A stretch of 64,000 nt of DNA from Warburgia ugandensis (taxonomy: Eukaryota > Streptophyta > Magnoliopsida > Canellales > Canellaceae). Positions 16,201-54,399 of the stretch are shown piece by piece. The DNA is taken from assembly GCA_035236585.1 (NCBI GenBank), contig CP141135.1, positions 74,687,057 through 74,751,056 of the forward strand. Direction: 5' to 3'. A program made the position numbers and the translations under genes. Under the pieces are notes generated by a model. It made no database searches and was not told the origin of the DNA. It worked only from the letters and a program-made list of their open reading frames with translations. How positions within the stretch are numbered: position 1 is the first letter of the stretch; every line of letters starts with the position of its first letter.

Positions 16201-19156
16201 TATGGATGGTATTAAGAAAGAACACTATACAGTACATATTTTAAGAACAAGAACCTACCAAAGATGCATTTGTTACATGAGATTTCTAGTACCCACCCAT
16301 CTTGAGGGGCTGTAAATCCGATGAATGGGTTGGATCACTCCAAAAATCAAGGGATGGGGCCAAACAGGTGATGTGGACTCCTTCCACACTTTTTTAGCAT
16401 GGACTCCTACCAGGACCCTATTTAAAGATGGGTTCCTCCAATGACAACAAGTAATAGACTTACACTTTTATTGTAGAATGTGTCATGTCGAGGTTGAACT
16501 AAATACTGAAATTGATGCTGCTTGAACAGTTAAGACTAAAATACGGTCACCTTGATGTAACTTGAGAAGGTAATGAACAGTTATGAGTTTTCAGTATTAA
16601 GCTTAGAATTTTATCCAACTTTCATCGTGTTTTAAGAAAAAACTACCTTTATCTTTTGCTTTGAAGCTGTTTCTTATGGAGACCTATTAAGTCATTGTTT
16701 CTAGAAAGTTTTTGTTTGGTGTGTAGGGATGGGGGATGAGCAGATTATGCCTCAAACACATTAACAACACTATCATGGTGAGAACAGTACTACTATAGCC
16801 CATATTCATCTTAAGCAACTCAAAAAGTGCAGATTTATATGGAGCGACAAGTAAACCAAAAAATGTACAGAGTTAAAGTTGCAAAATCAAATGAAGGACA
16901 TACCAATTCTTTTCCAAGAAGCAGAAAATTGGGAACACCGAATGCTCCCAGATGAATAAACCTGACCAACAAGAGATTTATTATGTTCAAGTAGTTTTAA
17001 ATATTTAAACTAGTTCGAGAATTGACACAAAGAAATGACATGTACTGATCAACAAAAAAGTCTGATCAAAAAACTACAGTTGCATTTGAATTTAAAACAC
17101 AAGACACCAGGAAAACATTTAGATATGCAAATAGTTAATGGGGATACCTGAATTACCCATAGAGATTTATTATGTTCAAGTAGTTTTAAATATTTAAACT
17201 AGTTCGAGAATTGACACAAAGAAATGACATGTACTGATCAACAAAAAAGTCTGATAAAAAAACTACAGTTGCATTTGAATTTAAAACACAAGACACCAGG
17301 AAAACATTTAGATATGCAAATAGTTAATGGGGATACCTGAATTACCCATATCTTAGAATTGCCAATAGAAGACACAAAGTCCTCAGCAGTGAGTAAGTTA
17401 AAAGCATAGTCTGCTGCATCTGCCAAAAAGAAGAGGTTTAAATATCATGTGTCATCCACTTAACTTACATTCCAAAAATAAGAAATTGACAAACTGAGTC
17501 ACTGGTAGGTAATTAATCTAGAACAACCAAAATAAGTAATGTGAGATGACGCGTCTTAACCAACCAGATGGTGTATCTAGCAATGGAAGTTTTACTTCTG
17601 AAGAGCTTTTCTTATCATATTGGTTTTGCACCTTGGCAAGAACATCCTACCAAAAGGGAGTAGCAGAGTGCCAGATATTTGTCAATGATATTTAGTGATG
17701 GACAAATGAAAAGAAGCAAATACAATAACTGAAAGCTGCAGCAACAGTTAAGCAGGGCACTTCTACATTTTGGAGCAAACAAATCTCACCAAGTGGTCAT
17801 CAATGCCAAATCTATCATAGTCCCTCTTCCATATTGGATTTGCCAGAAGTTCAAATGCATAGCGAATCTGCAAAACTCCAGCACAATTGTAAAGTAAGAA
17901 TCATTAGAAAGAAGAATGAGAGCAAACCCAGAAGTTGATCACTGAATTACACAGAAAATCAAAACATGTCCTTGTAACAGTGGGATTTTCTCTTTTTGAC
18001 AAACCCACATTGCTTTTCAAATAGAATAGAAAATATCTTGAGACATTTCAGAAGGGACTGAAATAACCATACAATATCTCTATACTACAAAAGACCATCA
18101 TTTCATGATTATCAATCATTTCCTTTCCTTAAAAAACAATGTCATTAAGTATTACTACAAAAAAAAATTGCAGTTCTCTTTAGAGAAGCATTATCTATTT
18201 GATTGTTTTCAAAAGTTAACATGGACAATGCCACAATGAATTTGATGGAAAATAATGACCTGATTCAGTTAAAAGAAGGAAGACCAACCTTAATAAAATC
18301 AACTGCGTGTGGCACCTCACTTCCAGAATTCCTGAAGATTATCGAACACGCAAATCCAATAACAAGAATGAATGCCCACATTCCAATTAACTAAAGTTTG
18401 TTAAAAAGAAATGACTGATACAATGCTTGATAAAACAAAGATATACAACTAGAACACAAGGGTTCGAGGTTGTGCTGTCTAACTTTCAGAAGAAATAGAT
18501 TTCAAATTCTTGAACAATTGATACCAAACATGACACGACCAAAGTCCTCCCAGGAAAAGAAAAGAGAAAAATTCTTCTTGACATTAAGAAATTTGAACAA
18601 CTATAAACCTGGATCTCATAATCTTCGAGAATTAGCAACACTTCTCCAGAAAAGCACCAAAAAACCTTACCACTATCCATTACCAGCAGAGAAAACAAAA
18701 TAAGCTAGTGACTGAACCACATGGTAGCATTCGAACTTGCACTATAAGAGAAGCTCATAAATCGTTGTCACAAGCATATTTACCATACCAAAAGCAAGAA
18801 CAAATCCATCTAAAGAAAAAGGAAATCCAGAATCTAGAAACAAAAGAGTGGACCATTTTGACAACAGCTTCTCATAAGCTTCAGTGACTTCTTCGATGGA
18901 TGCAAACTGCCTAACTCCAAGAACTGATCACAAACAAAAATCAGAACAACTATTATATCAGCATCGGAGAAAATTCAAAGAAAAATCCAAACAAAAAAAT
19001 CAAATAGAAGAAGAAGCAGAGAAGTGGAGTCAACTGACCGTCATAATGAGAAGTGAACGCAGAAGGAATTACGTAGAGCTGATAGAAGATCGCCAAAGAG
19101 AGTAGTAGAAGAGTAAAGAAGTAGCGCTTCACAAAGGCAACGATCATTGCAGCCAT
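1..19156 (-). CDS. Membrane-anchored J-like/thioredoxin-like protein, 17 exons seen, 3' end outside the window
   Basis: Exons, in coding order: 19156-19039, 18923-18854, 18331-18289, 17867-17790, 17646-17565, 17419-17337, 16961-16904, 12406-12296, 11057-11000, 10841-10745, 10364-10329, 9028-8892, 3004-2934, 2834-2781, 1754-1612, 1416-1270, 218-1. All introns are GT-AG and phases close, giving 534 residues with no stop. Residues 10-30 form one hydrophobic segment (signal anchor or signal peptide). Residues 37-103 resemble a J domain (YDVLGVRQF, then [18 protein letters not shown]) but have no HPD triad. Residues 150-265 and 279-360 look like thioredoxin folds (second: [12 protein letters not shown]) without CXXC. 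The conserved block [12 protein letters not shown] follows. From memory this architecture matches a conserved plant DnaJ-like/thioredoxin family, probably in the ER; I do not know a symbol. Expected role: a chaperone-like luminal or membrane protein, without normal Hsp70 stimulation or redox activity (inference). Donors of exons 2 (GTCCAC) and 13 (GTCTGA) are weak. Confidence 0.85.
2564..2730 (+). mobile_element. Au-type tRNA-derived SINE, copy 1
   Basis: The copy has the familiar Au SINE body: a tRNA-like head with a B-box-like ggttcaaggcg, then gcctcttgcaaaatgcaagg, then ccttccccagaccctgcat, and an end rich in T after gtgcaccgggctgccc. It is flanked by a perfect 12-bp target duplication, tatggttttagt, at 2552-2563 and 2731-2742. 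It lies in an intron of the J-like gene, antisense to it, just 3' of exon 14. Confidence 0.85.
5333..5570. repeat. Two tandem hairpin (MITE-like) units in the LINE 5' region
   Basis: Two similar units, 5333-5430 and 5475-5570, each begin with gttgaagatgatt or gctgaagatgatt and end with the inverted form aaaatcatcttcagct, so each can fold into a hairpin around an AT-rich loop that contains atgcattt. Each is preceded by gccagccggcaaggg and followed by acggc(c/a)accc. The layout suggests a small MITE that inserted and was then duplicated with its flanks. The second RTE copy at 12.9 kb lacks both. Confidence 0.75.
5817..8638 (+). pseudogene. Degenerate endonuclease/reverse transcriptase ORF of the first RTE LINE
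   Basis: The endonuclease begins near 5819 ([19 protein letters not shown], then ITCIQETMW) and continues as an open stretch at 6178-6831 ([19 protein letters not shown]). Reverse transcriptase follows at about 7190-7900, with [43 protein letters not shown] and the catalytic box LFADD near 7872. The C-terminal part is open at 8059-8274 and 8249-8638. Stops at several places (for example near 6830, 6999, 7345 and 7777) break the frame. Inferred: an old, immobile copy. Confidence 0.85.
9824..9886. repeat. Imperfect (caa)n/(ataaca)n microsatellite
   Basis: A run of caacaa, ataaca and aacaac units lies in the intron between exons 11 and 12 of the J-like gene. No gene signal is visible in it. Confidence 0.8.
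12090..12172 (+). repeat. tRNA-like sequence, probably a tRNA-derived SINE head or tRNA pseudogene
   Basis: An A-box-like ttagccaaattgg (12101-12113) and a B-box-like ggttaaaatcc (12147-12157) stand at tRNA-like spacing, with a possible T-arm stem (gtggg/ccact). The B box lacks the expected ttcga core, and the acceptor stem is poor, so a working tRNA is unlikely. It lies in the intron between exons 8 and 9 of the J-like gene. Confidence 0.55.
13250..13308. repeat. (tatg)n microsatellite
   Basis: About 14 perfect tetranucleotide units lie inside the 5' part of the second RTE copy. Any peptide read from it (YVCM repeats or TYIH repeats) is an artefact. Confidence 0.95.
13320..16035 (+). pseudogene. 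Degenerate ORF of the second RTE LINE
   Basis: Endonuclease and reverse transcriptase segments align by eye with the first copy: IACVQETK near 13363, a long open piece at 14047-14532, [12 protein letters not shown] near 15055, and the C-terminal piece at 15579-15833 ([19 protein letters not shown]). The catalytic FADD box appears as FANN near 15270, and there are many stops and deletions. It cannot encode an active enzyme. Confidence 0.8.
16972..17349. repeat. 189-bp tandem duplication over the end of exon 6 of the J-like gene
   Basis: Bases 16972-17160 are repeated at 17161-17349 with one difference noticed (gatca versus gataa near 17069/17258). The right copy holds the last 13 bases of exon 6 (which ends at 17337) plus its donor GTATCC. 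The left copy therefore gives a second, decoy donor 189 bases downstream in transcript direction. Use of the decoy would add an in-frame stop, so the first donor is probably the working one. Confidence 0.9.
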
Positions 19157-21817: not shown

Positions 21818-23775
<1,958 letters not shown>

Positions 23776-52022: not shown

Positions 52023-52468
52023 ATAAAAATTTCGTCCTCGAAATTTCGGTACATACCTCTATATAAATAACTCTGGGTGGATCCTCTTCATCTCATCTTC
52101 TGTCTCCCATGTAGCTTCCTGCAGTGAATGATATTGCCAGAGGACTTTGACTAATGATATAGTTTTAATCCACATTTCCTTGACTTTCTTATCCAGTATA
52201 TGCACAGGTCTATTCGAAATGTCATATTAGGCTGTAACTCTCCTGGGATCTATTCCAGCATGTGTGATGGGTCTGACATGTACTTCCTCAACATATATAC
52301 ATGGAAGATGTCATGTACATTTGCCAACTAGGTGGTAAGGCTAGCTAGTATACTACTGATCTAACTCTGCTTAAAATCTCAAAAGGCCTAATGTACCTAG
52401 GGCTAAGTTTCTCTTTATTCCCAAACCTCATCACTCATTTCATAGGGGAAACCTTTAAGAATACATGC
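52023..52468 (-). pseudogene. Integrase C-terminal/chromodomain-like tail, joined directly to RT
   Basis: Right after the RT end, the minus-strand reading jumps to the conserved integrase C-terminal segment (HVFLKVSPMK; KLSPRYIRPFEIL; then, frameshifted, HDIFHVYMLRKYMSDPSHML) and a short chromodomain-like end (EATWETEDEM-like near 52110). The RNase H and catalytic integrase parts normally in between are absent. The deletion junction is near 52468. Confidence 0.75.
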
Positions 52469-53119
52469 TCACCCTTGGAGAACTCTTAGGTCTTTCTTAG
52501 TAAGGGTAGTTAAAGGTAACACAATCTTTGAGAATCCCTCAATGAACCGATGATAATATCCTTCCAAACTGAGAAAACTATGCATCTCTATCACCTTCTT
52601 GGGCCTCTCCCAATGTAGCACTGCCTCAACTTTGGTTGGGTCTATGGCCACTCCATCTTTAGATACCATGTGGCCCAAAAACTGCACTTGATCTAACCAA
52701 AAATCACATTTACTGAACTTGGCATACAACCGATGTTGACAAACTGTGTCTAATACAGTGTGAAGATGCTCCCTATGTGCCTCATGACTAGGTGAGTAAA
52801 CTAAGATGTCATCGACAAAGACAATCATGAACTTATCCAAGTAAGCTCAAAAAACATGGTTCATTAAGTCCATGAACACTGCAGGTGCGTTGGTCAATCC
52901 AAATAGCATTAGTAAGAACTCATAGTGACCATAACAACTCCTAAAAGTAGTTTTCGAGATGTCCTCTTATCTAACCTTTAACTGATGGTACCCTGATCTC
53001 AGGTCTATCTTGGAGAATACTCGTGCTGATTGTAGCTGATCAAATAAATCATCTGTGCATGGCAAAGGGTATCACTTCTTTACAATGACACTATTTAGCA
53101 ACTAATAATCAATGCATAG

Positions 53120-53817
53120 TGACACACCCCACCCACCGTGGGGTCCACAGTAACAATATTGTCCGCTTTGGGCCGGGGCCCGAGGTACTGTGAGGCACCG
53201 TGACCTCAAGGGGGGCGGCGAAGCAGCGAAGCGGCGAAGGCCGAGGGGGGTGACGGTTGAGAGTTAGTCCCATACCGCCTGGAGAGGGGAGCTGGGCCGG
53301 GTGATAAGGAGTGGGAACACTCCTCACAGTAACAAGGCCTTTTACCCTGGGAAGCCGGGGTGAAAACAAAGCCGTGCGGGCCCCGGCCCAAAGCGGACAA
53401 TATTGTTACTGTGGACCCCACGGTGGGTGGGGTGTGTCAAATGGTATCAGAGCCAGTCTCCTCGTGGGGATGGGTGGCTAACCGCATGCGTGCCTCGGCA
53501 CACGAGGGCGTGTGTCCCCTAAGGGGGAGAGATCTAGCCCTTGCCGGCTGAGGTACCGTGAGGTACTGTGAGGCACCGTGACCTCAAGGGGGGCGGCGAA
53601 GCAGCGAAGCGGCGAAGGCCGAGGGGGGTGACGGTTGAGAGTTAGTCCCATACCGCCTGGAGAGGGGAGCTGGGCCGGGTGATAAGGAGTGGGAACACTC
53701 CTCACAGTAACAAGGCCTTTTACCCTGGGAAGCCGGGGTGAAAACAAAGCCGTGCGGGCCCCGGCCCAAAGCGGACAATATTGTTACTGTGGACCCCACG
53801 GTGGGTGGGGTGTGTCA
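53120..53817 (+). mobile_element. 698-bp TRIM-like retroelement with perfect 63-bp inverted ends
   Basis: Target duplication CATAG lies at 53115-53119 and 53818-53822. Two direct repeats, 53182-53439 and 53560-53817, look identical over 258 bp and flank an internal part of 120 bp that starts, two bases after the first repeat, with TGGTATCAGAGCC (53442-53454), the exact complement expected for plant tRNA-iMet; a purine run aagggggagaga follows at 53521-53532. This is the plan of a TRIM. In addition, 53120-53182 is a perfect inverted copy of the right terminus 53755-53817, so the element begins TGACACACC and ends GGTGTGTCA. It has no coding capacity. GC content is far above the surroundings. 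It sits in the chromovirus RT. Confidence 0.88.
53442..53454 (+). promoter_or_regulatory. tRNA-iMet primer-binding site of the TRIM-like element
   Basis: TGGTATCAGAGCC is the standard plant LTR-retrotransposon primer site, placed two bases after the CA end of the first direct repeat. Confidence 0.9.
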
Positions 53818-54399
53818 CATAGCCCTAGTGACTTATCCTTTTTCTTCACAAAAAGGATTGGTGCCCCCATGGAGACCAGCTTGGCCCGATGAAGCCCTTA
53901 TCAAGTAACTCTTGCAACTGTACTTTGAGTTCTCTTAACACTACTGGGGCCATTCTGTATGATGCCTTAGAGATAAGTGATGTACCTAACACCAGGTCAA
54001 TAGCAAAGTCAATCTCTCTACTTAGTTGCAATCTTGATAACTCATCAGAAAAAAAATCTGTAAACTCATGAACAACGTCAATATAGTCAATCTGTGGCTG
54101 CTTCCTACCCTCAACGATCACATAAGTAAGAAATGCTTTGCACCCTCGTGAATAAAATCATGCCACTTTCATAGTAGAGATGATGCATGTACTTTCCTGG
54201 CTTTTACTGCCCTAGAACAAAATTTCTGGTTGCTCAAGTATATAAAAAATAATCCACTTCTTACGGCAATCTATGGTAGCCCAATAGTTAGCTAACCAAT
54301 CCATTCCTAATATAACATCGTAATCAACCATGTCTAATCAAATGAAGTATGAGTCCATCCTCACACCTGATATCTCTCAGAGATACTTAGTAGCCTCTA

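Follow-up and report, generated by a model that had tools for sequence, protein, structure and literature searches.

A TRIM-like element with two U5 ends

The window (the whole stretch of 64,000 nucleotides that we analyzed) contains a 698-bp element at positions 53120-53817, which begins with TGACACACC, ends with GGTGTGTCA, and has CATAG on either side. An earlier note on this DNA had called the element TRIM-like, and its features bear this out: it has 261-nt direct repeats that are 100% identical (53182-53442 and 53560-53820), a primer binding site (PBS), a purine run, and the CATAG duplication. The note had also described the outer 63 bases as a perfect inverted repeat. In a self-comparison of the window, we found inverted arms of 64 nt (53119-53182 and 53755-53818) that are 100% complementary; the outermost of the 64 base pairs sits inside the duplication, so 63 nt of each arm count as part of the element. 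The features of the locus are given below, with unit coordinates in which A1 is position 53440 and A378 is position 53817. (A, B, C, and D are subfamilies of the repeat unit.)

53115..53119, no strand: left copy of the target-site duplication, CATAG
53120..53182, minus strand: left arm, an inverted U5 tip (unit A378 to A316), one of the U5 ends used in integration
53182..53817, plus strand: right arm, with a partial LTR, an internal part, and an LTR (A121-A378, A1-A378), and the other U5 end last
53182..53439, plus strand: first LTR (A121-A378), short of its initial 28 nt
53302..53309, plus strand: TATA-like TGATAAGG in the first LTR, a putative promoter, spotted by eye
53442..53454, plus strand: primer binding site TGGTATCAGAGCC, directly after the first repeat
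53521..53531, plus strand: polypurine tract (PPT) AAGGGGGAGAG; in unit D, the same tract lies directly before the U3 start
53532..53817, plus strand: second, complete LTR, whose U3 end is ATCTAGCC, without the TGTGAAGCC/TGTAAAGCC terminus of its ordinary relatives
53680..53687, plus strand: TATA-like TGATAAGG in the second LTR, a putative promoter, spotted by eye
53755..53817, plus strand: right terminal 63 nt, a perfect inverted repeat of the left arm
53818..53822, no strand: right copy of the target-site duplication, CATAG

Base 53182 is common to the left and right arms, which overlap by this 1 nt. Homology to subfamily D places the U3 end at 53532, so the LTR in the window is about 286 nt long and its first 28 nt are missing from the first direct repeat; this refines the view of the earlier note that the repeat lacks the start of a normal LTR. 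We had also considered TGACGGTTGAG (at 53249 and 53628) as the U3 start, and dropped it because B and D put the purine tract and the U3 start further upstream. The PBS motif TGGTATCAGAGCC, which we take to be the complement of the 3' end of the plant initiator tRNA-Met, also lies 3' of the LTR in units B, C, and D, with a spacer of 2-3 nt. The element does not contain any open reading frame of 200 amino acids or more (our cutoff), and an Rfam scan of the window (at the gathering threshold) and a tRNA scan of the window gave no matches.

If the element and one copy of CATAG are taken out of the window, then a single RVT_1 domain is continuous across the site (Pfam, E = 4e-26). Because the joined flanks read through as one reverse transcriptase, we consider the element to be a clean insertion. 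The target is a decayed reverse transcriptase gene with several stops (window positions 52300-54300, minus strand); Pfam itself gives RVT_1, and that it is Ty3/gypsy-like is our own reading. Elsewhere in the window, a 189-bp unit is tandemly duplicated with a 99% match (16972-17350), and there is a perfect (GA)48 run (23019-23114).

Fold-back copies across the genome

We searched the assembly of one genome (1.12 Gb in 14 contigs). The whole element as a query gave 322 matches genome-wide, and those listed were grouped by eye into at least 39 clusters, including the window. A second query, the left 131 nt of the element, gave 102 matches, from which 19 further loci were picked by eye. The sample consists of 58 loci (the window, 38 others, and these 19), and all 58 were counted.

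At 48 of the 58 loci, we found two outward U5 ends with a 5-bp duplication around them, which is exact in 45 cases and has one mismatch in the other 3 (L020, L059, and L060). These duplications are all different among the 48 loci. Several pairs of tips were tried at each locus, and the pairs with exact duplications were the outermost ones. Seven looser readings are included among the 48 and fall into two groups, with L060 in both: the one-mismatch duplications, and the copies in which the terminal base is changed or the tip is a variant, which were spotted by eye (L031, L033, L060, and L053). In a typical array, minus units lie to the left of plus units, so that U5 faces outward on both sides. 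The 48 fold-backs range in size from 124 to 5000 bp, and the smallest (L061) consists of 89 + 35 nt between copies of GACGT.

The structure in the window therefore recurs genome-wide with other duplications, and it is not a lone rearranged copy; this recurrence and the continuous RVT_1 domain across the empty site put the structure far beyond chance. The earlier note had proposed that the element has a U5-type terminus on either side and that it might belong to a distinct fold-back lineage, and it had asked for a genome search, in which all the other copies might have proved to be normal. They did not: the pair of U5 termini is present at 48 of the 58 loci, and the 48 different duplications agree with a distinct lineage. 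We also noticed two B fold-backs with the same layout of matches that are about 69 kb apart (C8:75343941-75345769 and C8:75412721-75414549), which are perhaps a segmental duplication.

Ten loci were excluded from the 48. L024, L027, and L065 have a single U5 end, and we saw no duplication around them. L014 has a single U5 end as well, and ATATG from its left flank occurs again 15 bases past the aligned right end, which may reflect a duplication whose right end is odd. Two further loci, L023 and L043, are truncated or complex copies, and L047 and L056 are fold-backs that extend beyond the retrieved stretch. In L042 (L042:1539-2260), the left end is the PBS (TGGTATCAGAGCC, TGGTATC...) and there is no second U5 tip; an exact duplication, AACAA, was found by eye. 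This copy looks like a cDNA that terminated at the PBS. (The PBS end of L042 also happens to start with TG.) The last of the ten, L063, is described with subfamily D below.

The target sites of the 48 fold-backs have a symmetric preference. Counting the left and right sides each alone and comparing twelve offsets, we found A at position -3 of the duplication in 29 of 48 sites (background 0.325, P = 7e-5) and T at position +3 in 31 of 48 sites (P = 4e-6), and no other offset of the twelve was equally skewed on both sides. A fixed 5-bp duplication together with a symmetric target preference is the mark of a retroviral-type integrase.

The outer tips of the 48 elements, counted by eye, are A/A in 23 cases, A/B in 21, and B/B in 4; elements with B/B tips are under-represented because the sample was found with A-type queries. 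(Subfamily A, of which C is the short form, is about 70% similar to B in the aligned parts.) In eight elements, one arm is entirely A/C and the other is entirely B, as judged from segments of more than 25 nt (L010, L011, L012, L018, L026, L035, L051, and L057). As 21 of the 48 elements have A/B tips, two different RNAs often contributed to one insertion. This speaks against the snap-back of a single molecule, which the earlier note had offered as an origin, and we reject it as the rule for these elements: self-folding would give like ends, and A-type and B-type tips are found together in these 21.

The U3 terminus and the central junctions

Subfamily D consists largely of ordinary elements. 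With D as the query, 40 of 3005 candidates were scored, and these gave 40 clusters. The matches have one orientation in 39 of the 40 scored clusters, and 29 of the 40 are of ordinary length (585-602 bp, or one LTR-internal-LTR element). All 20 of the D copies that we examined have ordinary ends: they start with TGTGAAGCC or TGTAAAGCC and end with CTGTTACA. At these normal U3 and U5 ends, there is an exact 5-bp target-site duplication in 12 of the 20 copies and not in the other 8. The D copies L066-L085 have two forms of U3, TGTGAAGCC and TGTAAAGCC. We also noticed two arrangements of D elements: at C9:55007880-55011468, ordinary D matches are in tandem with a period of about 600 bp, which is the full element, unlike in arrays that share LTRs; and at C12:20711753-20712950, two D elements in the same orientation are four bases apart by match coordinates.

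Subfamilies A, B, and C do not have the U3 terminus (TGTGAAGCC or TGTAAAGCC) that D keeps. The run of bases after the PPT is TGTGAAGCC in D, ATCTAGCC in A and C, and ATGGCTACC in B. The U3 start of B still has TG, and that the U3 end of B is "dead" is our inference from the structure of its copies. Among the B matches listed, 25 of 39 clusters are of mixed orientation, 20 with a single turn and 5 with more turns, and minus lies to the left of plus in all 20 of the single-turn clusters. The remaining 14 of the 39 have a single orientation in the B matches alone. We read three of these: in L010 and L051, A/C units complete a fold-back, and the third, L042, is the copy that ends at the PBS. The hybrid L063, whose U3 end is of D type and whose U5 end is of C type, is inserted in ordinary polarity, with TTAAG on both sides (read by eye). 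This is a correlation across four subfamilies and one hybrid, and in it the lost U3 terminus is the likely cause of the fold-back structure.

We aligned each element to real copies of the units, with jumps, and placed 50 minus-to-plus turns in the 48 elements (two apiece in L025 and L054). The 50 central junctions are all distinct, which rules out a palindromic master that is copied or moved as DNA. In the 46 single-turn elements, the arms are from 22 nt to 4.9 kb long, and there are 13 cases of arms under 120 nt. The 27 junctions without filler have a mean microhomology of 2.07, versus 0.69 by chance, and none of 5000 random sets was as high. The other 23 junctions of the 50 have filler (1 to 244 unassigned bases), and in 18 of these 23 the filler is just 1-6 bases. 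Some of the junctions join U3 to U3, either without filler (B end to A end in L010, and C end to B end in L026) or with it (5 bases in L064 and 11 bases in L045).

Of the 100 inner arm ends, 94 could be mapped (the other 6 are on a piece that we call E). Thirteen of the 94 lie in a five-base window at the U3 end (A91-95, B98-102, or C93-97), versus 1.3 expected (P = 6e-10); the U3 end was partly recognized from the junctions of L010 and L026 before we did this count, and the alignment with subfamily D gives the same coordinate. Within 30 nt of A91, B98, or C93, 31 inner ends are inside the LTR and 6 are outside of it (P = 4e-5). Inner ends are marginally enriched near the R start (11 of 94 versus 5.5 expected, P = 0.02) and near the PBS (5 of 94, P = 0.05), and they are not enriched in the outer 62 nt of U5 (18 of 94, P = 0.27). 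Jumps within the arms also favor the U3 end: 16 of 90 land on it, versus 2.0 expected, and 5 of 90 go from the U5 end, or from the first 8 bases past it, to the U3 start. Many of the arms look like normal products of reverse transcription, with a PPT-defined end, that were afterwards trimmed and joined. The five U5-to-U3 joins within arms suggest that some cDNA ends were ligated, and the tandem arms may derive from read-through transcripts, repeated strand transfer, or joined cDNAs. Piece E is 189 nt long and lies inside many arms near the presumed R start (L030, L037, L045, L046, L052, and L060); in L037, it is itself in tandem.

Probable mechanism and relation to known systems

Starting from what can be seen directly (two U5 ends, 5-bp duplications, heterotypic ends, unique junctions, clustering at the U3 end, and ordinary relatives that bear the U3 terminus), we think it probable that the U3 att site of these elements is dead, that a pair of cDNAs goes in jointly through the U5 end of each, and that the two U3 ends are end-joined. 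Subfamilies A, B, and C would then be a non-autonomous TRIM lineage that lost integrase recognition at U3 and kept a working U5. Ordinary reverse transcription would give linear cDNAs whose U5 end is set by the tRNA and whose U3 end is set by the PPT; this is indicated indirectly by the inner arm ends that fall on the U3 end. An integrase, presumably borrowed, would bring together the U5 ends of a pair of cDNAs, which often derive from different RNAs, and would insert both of them 5 bp apart, on opposite strands of the target. The dead U3 ends would be joined by the end-joining enzymes of the host, with trimming and with short microhomology or a few filler bases. As for the order of events, strand transfer probably comes first and the U3 joining follows as gap repair between the inserted molecules; we favor this order in view of the few copies that show a single U5 end without a visible duplication. 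L024, L027, L065, and perhaps L014 fit failures of the second arm. In the window, the first cDNA would have been trimmed to 63 nt of U5, and the second would have lost 28 nt of U3.

Several observations count against this reading. The arms of under 120 nt need heavy trimming or incomplete cDNAs, and the inner ends near the R start and the PBS suit incomplete cDNAs better than trimming. The PBS end of L042, the multi-turn elements L025 and L054, and the 8 of 20 D copies without an exact duplication are against it as well, and so are the TG that B keeps at its U3 start and the correlative nature of the link between U3 loss and fold-backs. With more reserve, we lean toward the view that the lineage became an obligate two-molecule integrator after it lost one integration site, so that each copy would be a new fold-back with its own center and many (21 of 48) would cross two subfamilies.

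The host might instead join free linear cDNAs at their U3 ends before integration, and the product might then be inserted in the manner of a provirus. This variant of our reading explains the same junctions, heterotypic ends, and duplications, and the 5 of 90 in-arm jumps to the U3 start resemble the ligation of free ends. However, it leads us to expect many internal tail-to-tail joins of U5 to U5, and a plus-to-minus turn is seen only in L025 and L054 of the 48; nor does it predict the one-ended copies without a visible duplication (L024, L027, and L065). Within our reading, we consider this order possible and clearly the less likely. It seems rather unlikely to us that the head-to-head form is made during reverse transcription, by two minus-strand cDNAs that cross-prime at short matches or by one that snaps back, with integration in one step. 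Such an origin would account for the microhomology at the centers, the unique junctions, the mosaic arms, and the very short arms, and, marginally, for the arm ends near the R start and the PBS, the places at which minus strands would terminate. There is no need, though, for a strand switch to stop at the PPT-defined U3 end, where 13 of the 94 inner ends lie and near which the ends are trimmed inward (31 versus 6), and the filler in 23 of the 50 junctions (1-6 bases in 18 of them) also speaks against it. The ordinary D copies are unexplained by it, and its snap-back form does not explain the heterotypic ends of 21 of the 48 elements. The strand switch that the earlier note had suggested is thus possible, but it fits less well than the end joining of finished cDNA ends, which would give just this pile-up at U3 and inward trimming. 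A further idea, in which two minus strands prime each other and no plus strand is made, lost ground because of the clustering of inner ends at the U3 end that the PPT defines.

A class II fold-back transposon, whose inverted ends would be transposase sites and whose tandem units would be repeats within long terminal inverted repeats, would resemble these elements in its inverted ends, in its duplication, and in modular arms that vary in length. We nevertheless consider this explanation very improbable: the units contain a PBS and a polypurine tract, the relatives are ordinary LTR-internal-LTR elements with 5-bp duplications, the 50 centers are all unlike, and the two ends are often of different subfamilies. 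Inverted repeats and tandem arrays are also hard to assemble, and one copy alone could be an assembly artefact or an ordinary TRIM that was rearranged after insertion. For the family, this is scarcely credible, given two U5 ends with 48 different duplications at 48 places, the symmetric target preference, the clean empty site in the window, and the D copies that are ordinary in the same assembly.

Retroviruses and LTR retrotransposons are described as integrating through the joining of one cDNA's two unlike ends. In this one genome, a natural series (D with the U3 terminus, and A, B, and C without it) makes it possible to ask what follows when one end fails, and the structures that survive point to a pairing of two cDNAs through the good end that each still has. 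They also suggest that a single integration complex can receive cDNAs from two RNAs. If two cDNAs are indeed inserted by their U5 ends, then two-donor insertion, a test-tube reaction, becomes testable in a living lineage, and there would be a route from retroelements to fold-back DNA without a transposase. Such DNA could seed inversions and small RNAs.

We compared these elements with known classes. As in a TRIM, there are direct LTRs around a short internal domain (in the right arm; D is plain LTR-internal-LTR), a PBS and a PPT (the identity of the tRNA is presumed), and a target duplication within the range of 4-6 bp (CATAG in the window, and 5 bp in 48 of the 58 loci). In contrast to a TRIM, which has U3 at its left end and U5 at its right, both outer ends are U5 tips. 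TRIMs have a total length below 1 kb, and the element in the window has 698 bp while the 48 fold-backs span 124 to 5000 bp; TRIMs also lack coding capacity, and the element in the window has no open reading frame of 200 amino acids or more. The inverted terminal repeats, which are internally repetitive in the longer copies, are as in class II fold-back elements; those lack the signals of LTR retrotransposons, whereas a PBS, a PPT, and LTRs are present in units A, B, C, and D. DIRS-type elements are likewise retroelements with inverted ends, but they use a tyrosine recombinase and have no target duplication of fixed length, whereas there are 5-bp duplications here. Fold-back DNA transposons are transposase elements without a PBS, a PPT, or LTRs. 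They are alike in having inverted, internally repetitive ends of variable length; examples are Tetris (PMC4079207) and Galileo.

Tandem TRIM arrays and one inverted maize pair are already known. As far as the accessible parts of the article go, Gao et al. 2016 (PMC4717578) report that tandem TRIM arrays are common in plants, with short units, shared LTRs, and a 5-bp duplication, and the legend of their Fig. 2 mentions one Zma-SMART array from maize, "with two inverted TRIMs", whose target-site duplication is CTTCA. This inverted pair is one named example, for which those parts give no mechanism; here, fold-backs are the prevailing form in three subfamilies (A, B, and C), and they have U5 on both sides, unique centers, and a missing U3 terminus. 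The tandem arrays of Cassandra (PMC7215508) are likewise TRIM-class retroelements in tandem, and the accessible text uses "inverted" of primers or PCR and does not contain "head-to-head". The Wukong TRIM of maize (PMC4528315) is similar in that it has elements with three to seven LTRs, and according to the available portion of that paper, the LTRs are usually in one orientation. Two further papers on tandem arrays (PMC11899658 and PMC6934838) describe no head-to-head family in their accessible text. Across the literature that our search covered, which takes in a minority of subscription papers, a two-U5 family was not found described, and the maize pair (PMC4717578) is the one precedent.

A published counterpart to the proposed mechanism is avian viral DNA with one mutated end: according to the accessible text of PMC5041404, integrase inserts the good end, and host enzymes take care of the bad one. 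The likeness is that one end is inserted by integrase and the other is joined by the host, with deletions or insertions. In those vectors, it is host DNA to which the bad end becomes joined. Here, in contrast, the good ends of two molecules appear to be paired and the bad ends to be linked together, and a clean 5-bp duplication flanks the insertion.
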